Assembly: GCF_013839515.1 (NCBI RefSeq)
Contig: NZ_JACDNQ010000002.1
Location: forward strand, 62,001 to 126,000
Direction of reading: 5' to 3'
Length of the DNA stretch: 64,000 nucleotides
Source: Natronomonas salinimetallica
GTDB lineage: Archaea; Halobacteriota; Halobacteria; Halobacteriales; Haloarculaceae
Shown here: positions 29,359-40,371 of the stretch, in pieces
How positions within the stretch are numbered: position 1 is the stretch's first letter
Layout: each line of letters begins with the position of its first letter
Position numbers and translations under genes: made by a program
The notes under the pieces: model-generated
The model's database searches: none
What the model was told of the DNA's origin: nothing
The model's input: the letters and a program-made list of their open reading frames with translations, nothing else

Positions 29359-30450
29359 ATGTTCCGGGAGGCGATCGATTACCCGACACAACGCCCCGAA
29401 GGTGGTCGTTCGGTCATCGTCGGCGGGCTCGTTCTCGTCGTCATCATGGCCTCCCTCGGTGTCGCCGGGCTCGATACGCCCTACGCGTATCTCGCCGCCG
29501 TGGCCCTCTTGCCGTGGCTCCTCGTCCGGGGATATTACGTCCGCGTCGTACGGACGACGATCGGGCGCGACCAGCCCACGCCGCCTCGGTTCGGCGACGT
29601 CCGACGTCTGCTCCGTGACGGCGTGGTGGCGGTCGGCATCTCGGCTGTCTACCTGTCGCCGGGGATCGTGGTCCTCGGGCCGCTGGCGGTCTCACAGGCA
29701 CTCGGCGCTGACTTTCCGACGCGTCTGACCGACGTCGGGATTCCGGAGAACGCCACCGCGGTTGCGGTACCGATCGTGGGGCTTCTCGCCGTACTCGCGC
29801 TCATGTACGTCATCGGCGCGCTCTACGTTCTCCCCGTCGCGGTCGCACGGTTCGCCTACACCGATCGGCCCGGTGCCGCCTTCGAGATCCGGCCCGTCGT
29901 TTCCGGGGCCGTGACCGAGGACTACGCCACCGCGTGGGGCATCTCCGTCGCGTTACGAGTGTTCGTGCTCCCGTTTACCTACCTGCTTCGGCTCCTCCTC
30001 GTCGGGTTCTTCTTGCAGTTCATGATCGCTACCAGCGTCCGGTACTGCTACGGGCAGGGCGTGGGGGCCGCACTCGATCTCGATCCGGTCCCCGCCACAC
30101 ACGAGCGGAGCGACCCCGACGACTGGGCGCTCCGATCCGCCGTCGAACGGGTCCCGTCCGACGACGGGGCGTTCGGAAGCCGGCGTCGGCGACCCCTGAC
30201 CGGGGGCCGAGAGCTTACGCCCGCGGTACGGCGGGTGGCGGGCGGCGATTCCAGGGGGGCCCCCGAGGCTGAGACGGATGCGGACCCGACATCGGATGCG
30301 GACCCGACATCGGATGCGGACCCGACATCGGATGCGGACCCGACATCGGAGACGTTCGGCGGCGGTTTCCGGCCCGCCGTCGATCCGGATCGGACCGGGA
30401 GCGAGAGCGAACGCGGGACCCGGAGTGAACACGAGGATGACGACGACTGA
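29359..30450 (+). CDS. DUF4013 integral membrane protein with repeat tail
   Basis: 363 aa. Two hydrophobic blocks (about 20-75 and 90-230) form five or six transmembrane helices with the DUF4013 look (PWLLVRGYYVRVVR, VVSGAVTEDYATAW, FMIATSVRYCYGQG). The C-terminal ~130 residues are hydrophilic and acidic and include DADPTS-type repeats from four 18-bp DNA units. Family function is unknown. Convergent with the DUF5794-like gene, with a MITE between them. Confidence 0.8.
   Translation: MFREAIDYPTQRPEGGRSVIVGGLVLVVIMASLGVAGLDTPYAYLAAVALLPWLLVRGYYVRVVRTTIGRDQPTPPRFGDVRRLLRDGVVAVGISAVYLSPGIVVLGPLAVSQALGADFPTRLTDVGIPENATAVAVPIVGLLAVLALMYVIGALYVLPVAVARFAYTDRPGAAFEIRPVVSGAVTEDYATAWGISVALRVFVLPFTYLLRLLLVGFFLQFMIATSVRYCYGQGVGAALDLDPVPATHERSDPDDWALRSAVERVPSDDGAFGSRRRRPLTGGRELTPAVRRVAGGDSRGAPEAETDADPTSDADPTSDADPTSDADPTSETFGGGFRPAVDPDRTGSESERGTRSEHEDDDD
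30277..30348 (+). repeat. In-frame 18-bp tandem repeat, four units
   Basis: GATGCGGACCCGACATCG is repeated four times without change (30277, 30295, 30313, 30331), coding for DADPTS repeats in the acidic tail of the DUF4013 protein. Identity at the DNA level implies recent expansion. Confidence 0.95.
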
Positions 30451-30506
30451 GACTGTCGGCTGGCCCCGTTGGACGACACGCACGCGCCGGTGTCGTGGTA
30501 TCCTCA

Positions 30507-30613
30507 TACTGCCGGACGTGCCGACTTGAATCGCGGGCCACTCGACACGCACGTTCGACCGGCAGTTCGGACATGTACCGAGTCGGACGTTCACGAACGG
30601 ACGTCCGGCAGTA
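30507..30613. mobile_element. MITE, family 1 copy A (107 bp, 3-bp target duplication TCA)
   Basis: Ends TACTGCCGGACGT (30507-30519) and ACGTCCGGCAGTA (30601-30613) are exact inverted repeats of 13 bp. The flanks are TCA (30504-30506) and TCA (30614-30616), a perfect 3-bp duplication. It lies between two convergent genes, and its right-hand TCA is the TGA stop codon of the minus-strand gene. About 93% identical to the outer element at 58648-58864. No open frame. Confidence 0.92.
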
Positions 30614-31510
30614 TCAGAGCCAGGGAGCGCGGTCGCCGTCCGGGACGCCGGGCGAGCCGTCCTCCTCGACGCCGTCGTCGAGCAACGGCTCGCCGTCCGC
30701 GTCGGCGGCGTCTGGGCCGCCGTCGGTCGCCGGAGCCTCGCCGCCCCCGTCTGCGGGACCGGGGAGGTCGATCGCACCCTCGGGGTTGAACGCCAGGAGG
30801 CCGGTGAGCGCGAGGACGATGAGCGCCAGCGGCTCCTCGCCCGTGATCGGGCCGACCTCGAGGATCGTCAAGGGGAGTACGCCCAGCGCAACGGCGCTCC
30901 CGAAGCGGAACCGATCGATATCGACGTTGCCGCGCAGCCACGGGCCGAGCAGGGCGACCGCGAGCGCGAACCCGACGCCGATGATCGCCGCGCCGGTTCC
31001 GTAGAGGACGTACACGGGCTCGGAGATGATCGCGAGCTCGAAGCCGTTCGGCCGGAAACTGGCGACCAGCCCGAGCGCGATGATGACGCTCGGGTTCGGG
31101 AGGTATTCGCCGATGGTGGCGCTGGCGGTCTTGGCCGCGATCGCGAGGATGACCAGGGCGGCGAAGCGCTCGAAGATCGCCATCGACAACAGCGACTCGA
31201 TGGTCGGGGCGATGGCCGCCTGGATCGCGGCGAGCGGGACGACGAGCGCCCCGACGAGCAGGATGTTCCGGACGCGCTCTCGGCGGCTGCCCTCCATCTC
31301 GGCGAGGACGACAGCGAGCGTCGCGCTGCCGCCGAAGATGAGCAGCCCGACCTCGACCATACCGAGGAGCGACGACACTGCCCCCGCGAGGACGAGAGCC
31401 GCGAAGATCCCGTCCAGAAGCGGCAGCGCCATGACGGTGGCGAGCAACCGGGTTCCCTCGCCGACGCGTCGCTCGAGGCGTAACGCGACCGGATGTCGTG
31501 ACGTACTCAT
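30614..31510 (-). CDS. DUF5794-like haloarchaeal membrane protein
   Basis: 298 aa with about seven transmembrane segments between residues 20 and 240 (ATVMALPLLDGIFAALVLAG, FAALVILAIAAKTASATIGE, PLTILEVGPITGEEPLALIV), then an acidic disordered tail. Resembles a haloarchaea-specific family labelled DUF5794; function unknown. The ATG overlaps the stop of a small upstream frame (ATGA), suggesting coupling to that now-frameshifted gene. The TGA stop is the target duplication of the adjacent MITE, and it was already the stop before insertion. Confidence 0.78.
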   Translation of the reverse strand: MSTSRHPVALRLERRVGEGTRLLATVMALPLLDGIFAALVLAGAVSSLLGMVEVGLLIFGGSATLAVVLAEMEGSRRERVRNILLVGALVVPLAAIQAAIAPTIESLLSMAIFERFAALVILAIAAKTASATIGEYLPNPSVIIALGLVASFRPNGFELAIISEPVYVLYGTGAAIIGVGFALAVALLGPWLRGNVDIDRFRFGSAVALGVLPLTILEVGPITGEEPLALIVLALTGLLAFNPEGAIDLPGPADGGGEAPATDGGPDAADADGEPLLDDGVEEDGSPGVPDGDRAPWL

Positions 31511-40263: not shown

Positions 40264-40371
40264 TACTGGTGGACGAAATCAAATGAAACCGACTCACGAG
40301 TGATCCGCCGTTCGCTCCGTCGAACGGCGTGATCCTCGTGCGTCGTGTGTACATTCTTTTGTTCGTCAGTA
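40264..40371. mobile_element. MITE-like element, family 2 copy 2 (108 bp, target duplication TGA)
   Basis: Runs from TACTGGTGGACGAAATC to TTGTTCGTCAGTA, flanked by TGA (40261-40263) and TGA (40372-40374). Inverted relative to 19194-19301, with about five mismatches. It contains the internal hairpin CGCCGTTCG...CGAACGGCG. It inserted in the 3' end of the DUF6149-like gene and supplies that gene's present last codon and stop. Confidence 0.92.

Follow-up and report, generated by a model that had tools for sequence, protein, structure and literature searches.

The window, by which we mean the whole analysed stretch of 64,000 nucleotides of the Natronomonas salinimetallica genome, contains four related short elements of three types, rather than two copies of a single one. 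The types are named after their ends: C stands for TACTGCCGGAC, T for TACTGTCGGAC and D for TACTGGTGGAC combined with TACTGACGGAC or TACTGACGAAC. The ends of the family in general are abbreviated as TACTGYCGGACRNAANTNNNTGAA-like.

The first C-type element (copy 1, 30507-30613) is 107 bp long and has perfect 13-bp inverted ends, TACTGCCGGACGT and ACGTCCGGCAGTA. It is flanked by a target duplication, TCA on the left (30504-30506) and TCA on the right (30614-30616). Read on the minus strand, the right triplet is the TGA stop codon of a 298-aa gene (30614-31510, minus strand), and this stop codon was the insertion target. The element's other neighbour, a gene ending at 30450, carries a tandem 18-bp repeat (GACCCGACATCGGATGCG) at 30300-30350, which encodes DPTSDA units.

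The second C-type element (58648-58864), flanked by TGA/TGA, measures 217 bp because a T-type element of 107 bp (58711-58817) with TACTGTCGGACGTAA ends and TTA/TTA flanks sits inside it. Without this insert and one TTA, the remaining 107 bp are identical to copy 1 at 100 of 107 positions (93.5%). The preliminary description had reported copy 1 with its perfect 13-bp ends and TCA flanks and a 93%-identical copy between TGA triplets, and both statements hold, the second after subtraction of the insert. It overlooked the interruption of the second copy, the identity of the triplet at 30614 as a stop codon and the related D-type element at 40264-40371. The latter is 108 bp long, has TACTGGTGGACG and TACTGACGAAC ends, is flanked by TGA/TGA and differs from copy 1 in its interior. 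Its end (TAC TGA) supplies a new stop codon to the adjacent minus-strand gene, which is shortened from 200 to 183 aa.

Perfect 13-bp inverted repeats accompanied by a TNA duplication (spacing of about 73-260 bp) occur at two places in the window, and none of 60 first-order Markov sequences of the same length contained such a combination at comparable spacing. Hairpin folding of three window elements gave z values from -3.2 to -7.6. An Rfam search of the window returned tRNA only, with no Rfam family at the places occupied by the elements.

Insertion at a stop codon and copies in the same genome

Of the other 19 genomes in the genus, 18 have a match to the protein encoded at 30614-31510. All 18 orthologues, one of them partly N-masked, have their stop codon after the same last residues, and TACTGNNGG is absent within the 400 bases that follow it in every case. 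As the orthologous stop codon exists without the element in all 18 congeners, 30507-30613 is an insertion. Loci L429 and L433 read CTC-TGA-GG, like the reconstructed empty site of the window, where the TGA of the gene has been duplicated as the target and is directly followed by the element. Next to the orthologue, none of the 18 genomes showed the gene that ends at 30450 in the window, so the empty-site comparison rests on one flank. The preliminary description had linked a constant gene context in related species to a conserved regulatory element; the comparison shows instead that the element at 30507-30613 is independent of gene context.

The search of the 2.78-Mb genome with copy 1 (121-bp query), also suggested earlier, returned 22 matches. 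Fourteen of them, including copy 1 itself, cover at least 105 bases with 88-100% identity, one more has 77% identity and the others are pieces. The T-type element at 58711 gave 27 matches, eleven at full length with 97-100% identity and one at full length with 84%. Four T-type copies (L064-L067, G000) adjoin 10-base assembly gaps, and since copies are cut by such gaps, the copy counts from this draft genome are lower bounds. Ends of the form TNATACTGNNGGAC occur 168 times in the genome, against none for the reversed control pattern. Among the TNATACTGNNGGAC matches listed, 68 of 100 are D-type ends, five of which belong to one tandem array.

Nested copies with their own duplications are found for T in C (58648-58864 of the window) and for D in T (G000:C1:197484-197703). 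At L011 and L017 a single TNA is common to two element ends, and L009 has a similar join with no recognisable second element. Near a contig start (L360, G000:C3:1-200) a 23-bp unit, to which a D-type end contributes its last 20 bp and a TCA triplet the rest, is repeated five times in tandem. This array could be the product of repeated one-ended events or an assembly artefact.

Spread, ends and target sites of the superfamily

When one genome from each of 84,980 species was scanned for the pattern TACTGNCGGAC N70-100 GTCCGNCAGTA, at least 113 stretches matched, and all 113 matches listed are haloarchaeal by record title. The genera among the matches listed are Natrialba, Natrinema, Natronorubrum, Natronococcus, Natronolimnohabitans, Natrarchaeobius, Salinadaptatus, Halorientalis and Halococcus, together with several uncultured lineages. 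The distribution is patchy within the window's genus, strict matches being present in 5 of 20 genomes, its own included. Relatives of the T-type element were found in 5 of 96 other genomes, every one of the same genus. TACTGNCGGACA ends are abundant in Natronolimnohabitans sp. A-GB9 (349) and in YIM A00010 (192), with 1 and 3 occurrences of the control pattern, respectively.

Plasmids with related elements were found in Natribaculum, Natronorubrum, Natrialba, Natrinema, Natrononativus and Halobiforma. One of the three element queries used for this matched no haloarchaeal plasmid, and the 217-bp copy of the window had no match among plasmids and phages. Viral contigs gave no matches for paired ends; two single-end matches in them, inside a long frame of an apparent phage, were taken as chance.

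From the returned loci, 160 distinct elements were taken. This set does not represent all copies: D copies fetched later were excluded (four D copies are in the set), as were ends outside TACTGN[CT]GGAC. By interior identity (72% threshold) the 160 elements fall into 23 clusters, 11 of which are single copies. With one representative per cluster (46 ends), R is kept at end position 12 in 45 ends, A at position 14 in 36, A at position 15 in 34 and T at position 17 in 34, while TGAA at positions 21-24 is kept in 33, 32, 32 and 35 ends. Positions 12, 14-15, 17 and 21-24 were left free by the database scan pattern; position 12 was fixed by two other patterns. Bipartite ends are common to the 23 interior clusters, consisting of an outer part, TACTGYCGGACR, and an inner part, AA-N-T-NNN-TGAA.

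Element length varies little. In a first set of 145 elements it ranged from 94 to 109 bp and was 107-109 bp in 112 of them, although the database pattern allowed 92-122 bp. Two length classes can be seen in that set, 94-100 and 104-109 bp, with few of the families being independent. A wider scan (60-160 bp) also returned single lengths such as 75, 115 and 123-132 bp.

L163, L173 and L197 contain additional related families, whose ends include TACTGGTGGCTGTA. The L163 family is interrupted by a TACTGCCGGAC-type element and the L173 family by a repeat with ACAGCCAGACGTGA ends. A repeat with TAGTGATTATTG ends and a TCA triplet lies at positions 3691-5803 of L135 and is possibly a separate TNA-target family.

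An exact 3-bp duplication flanks 115 of the 160 elements and is TNA every time (TCA 58, TGA 41, TTA 8, TAA 8). When the triplet is read as TRA, it is preceded by C in 81 of the 115 cases (23% of control sites) and followed by G in 54 (20% of control sites). With this preference for C at -2 and G at +2, the target is CTNAG-like. Together with the nested insertions, the exact duplications support the view, already put forward in the preliminary description, of a non-autonomous family generating 3-bp TNA duplications.

Stop codons among the insertion sites

Genes around the elements were called by a codon-usage score after removal of the elements; this is a simple caller, not a curated annotation. 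Elements less than 150 bp from a locus end were excluded, which reduced the whole set from 160 to 154 and the exact-duplication set from 115 to 110. Stop-codon and orientation counts refer to exact-duplication copies unless stated otherwise.

The duplicated triplet is the stop codon of a gene in 45 of the 110 copies, is otherwise non-coding in 61 and is coding in 4. Thus, 106 of the 110 elements are located outside called genes, 45 of them on stop codons. Among control TNA sites outside called genes in the same loci, 286 of 4,809 are stop codons. The motif-weighted expectation is 7.5%, compared with the observed 45 of 106 (p = 4e-23); this and the following p-value are optimistic because related copies within one genome are not independent. 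A stricter test was restricted to sites at most 100 bp downstream of a gene 3' end and having C before or G after the triplet, for elements and controls alike. Here 43 of 63 elements, compared with 169 of 440 control sites, lie on the stop codon (odds ratio 3.4, p = 7e-6), and removal of two orthologous repeats leaves 41 of 61 elements (odds ratio 3.3). The same 100-bp test with no motif demand gives 47 of 70 versus 304 of 1,048 (odds ratio 5.0).

With imperfect duplications included, 61 of 154 elements are at stop codons; these belong to several end types, some types having none there. In the window's own genome, 6 of 19 elements are at stop codons. Of 10 annotated plasmid records, 3 (L299, L302, L303) have an annotated gene whose end directly adjoins the element. 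The orientation of the element relative to the gene shows no bias among the 45 stop-codon copies (17 versus 16, 12 undecided), and this speaks against the element functioning as an RNA signal.

Overall, we infer that most of this distribution reflects purifying selection combined with the target motif, and that beyond these stop codons are still preferred about threefold. A better selection model may remove part of the excess.

The mobiliser and relation to known systems

An autonomous transposon with the family ends was not found in the loci examined from the own genome, other genomes and plasmids, which cover the genomes in part. The own genome has five matches to PF01609 (DDE_Tnp_1), of which L080-L083 were inspected and L084 overlaps L080. 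L082 scores above the NCBIfam cut-off for an IS5-family transposase and L080 just below it; L081 and L082 share 90% identity. L080-L083 contain no TACTG with TNA in front of it, and the unit that L081 has in common with L082 does not terminate in TACTG. Thirty DDE_Tnp_1 loci (of 73 PF01609 matches) from seven other element-bearing genomes included none with matching ends. PF13586 exceeded the cut-off in none of 10 genomes, with one weaker match.

Twelve haloarchaeal plasmids (6.44 Mb) contain 69 exact TACTGNCGGAC ends and no pair of them at IS distance, the pattern being one that misses D-like ends. Relaxed end pairs revealed no partner in 381 of the 637 kb of a Natribaculum plasmid or in 40 stretches of other genomes, none of them longer than 20 kb. 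A looser scan of 447 loci (2.88 Mb with overlaps) returned 11 end pairs 630-2213 bp apart. They were rejected as autonomous partners, as inspection by eye of the longest frame, over its first 80 residues, showed no transposase. Several pairs (L003, L019, L148 and L337) each consist of two distinct short elements separated by other sequence; at L337 (G000:C1:35293-36391) two D-type elements enclose about 0.9 kb that contain a 215-aa reading frame. A 1192-bp pair in L125 and a 3.3-kb pair in L163 were also rejected, with host genes located between short elements.

Non-autonomous MITE-like elements of about 107 bp, moved in trans, duplicating TNA at a CTNAG-like target and retaining a preference for stop codons, very probably account for these observations. 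Three features of MITEs are present: the elements are short and have no transposase gene, they combine inverted ends (fixed in the 160-element set by construction of the search) with a target duplication, and near-identical copies exist alongside element-free sites. As no autonomous relative or transposase was found, movement in trans is something we infer. Judging from the ends, the nesting and the constant 3-bp size of the duplication, the enzyme acting in this way would be a DDE-type transposase. Such an enzyme would recognise both ends through their outer TACTGYCGGACR and inner AA-N-T-NNN-TGAA parts and move the element, which would then be joined to a 3-bp staggered cut at the CTNAG-like target, duplicating TNA. 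Where the insertion falls on a stop codon, as in about four in ten copies, the duplicated TGA or TAA keeps the gene intact.

Several identities of the mobiliser can be considered. One of them, compatible with the MITE reading, is a host transposase, stand-alone or domesticated, that lacks element ends and in this resembles RAYT; we hold this tentative proposal to be rather unlikely. It would explain why hundreds of ends per genome have no long partner in the stretches examined and why ends and length are alike across many genera, but no candidate gene emerged. The conserved ISH3-like transposase of 558-586 aa (L083 in the own genome, L269 and L289), which is 67-77% identical across the own genome, G103 and G099 and scores below the NCBIfam cut-off, was tried in this role. 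It was set aside because its conserved DNA ends in another sequence; by eye, it looks like an ISH3-type transposase with its own conserved right end. Bacterial REP sequences, which are high-copy extragenic palindromic repeats, are believed to owe their mobility to such a gene of the host, encoding the tyrosine transposase RAYT, but the 3-bp duplications of the window family point to a different chemistry.

An ordinary IS5-family, IS1031-like element, which the preliminary description had proposed as the source of the transposase, is also compatible with MITE-like elements but seems an unlikely mobiliser. The 3-bp TNA duplication, a property of the IS1031 group of the IS5 family, fits, and the own genome does encode an IS5-family transposase (L082). 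However, the IS5-family ends in this genome are unlike TACTG, none of the 30 PF01609 loci described above has matching ends, PF13586 stays below its cut-off in all 10 genomes, and in G103, which bears elements, PF01609 matches one protein only, which is 77% identical to the ISH3-like L083 and is not of IS5 type. Within the part of the genomes covered, neither a transposase gene bounded by the family ends nor a full-length IS with the same ends was found, leaving the earlier assignment unsupported. It is similarly improbable, in our opinion, that one dedicated non-IS transposase, stand-alone or domesticated, serves the family across haloarchaea, recognising a conserved bipartite end, moving many dissimilar interiors of about 107 bp and aiming at stop codons, which outlast their own duplication, as a safe harbour.

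It is highly improbable that the family is a conserved regulatory or terminator element of 3'-UTRs which spread by duplication and not by transposition: gene 3' ends are preferred and three window elements fold as hairpins, but none of the 18 congeners carries the element behind the orthologous stop codon, target duplications are exact, copies are nested, orientation to the gene is about even and no Rfam family lies at these places.

MITE-like elements are known as a kind. What sets this family apart is the wide haloarchaeal spread, the stop-codon bias and the lack of a visible autonomous partner. Dissimilar interiors combined with shared bipartite ends and near-constant length pose the question of which enzyme moves the family, and the stop-codon bias suggests a strategy of harmless insertion. 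Nested mosaics and the trimming of C-termini, as at 40264 in the window, matter for genome annotation. No description of the family was found in the literature searched (ISfinder, most subscription journals and supplements lay outside the search), which is weak evidence of novelty.

Several known systems are comparable. SMR-A of Haloquadratum walsbyi is about 110 bp long, has inverted terminal repeats and many copies and contains no gene; its mobilisation was called enigmatic (PMC3119063). The window family resembles it in length, inverted ends, copy number, absence of a gene and haloarchaeal host. As far as the accessible part of that source goes, no target duplication is reported for SMR-A, which inserts into the near-terminal palindromes of PATEs and of IS605-type transposons (PMC3119063). 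By this description it is set apart from the window family, which makes 3-bp TNA duplications and occupies stop codons or other non-coding sites.

Among IS5-related archaeal MITEs, a 140-bp one from Methanosarcina acetivorans is linked to ISMma12 and, in the portion of the paper available, apparently has a 3-bp direct repeat (PMC3852290). Such MITEs are like the window family in being short, with inverted repeats and apparently a 3-bp repeat, but they have a named autonomous IS, whereas none was found for the window family (PMC3852290). RUP of Streptococcus pneumoniae is, according to the accessible part of its description, a 107-bp intergenic element with about a hundred copies, a TA target and IS630-Spn1 as the proposed partner (PMC2229807). 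The window family shares with RUP the length of 107 bp, the intergenic location, the copy number of about a hundred and the inverted ends, but differs from this IS630-type MITE in that its duplication is the 3-bp TNA rather than TA and its host is unrelated (PMC2229807).
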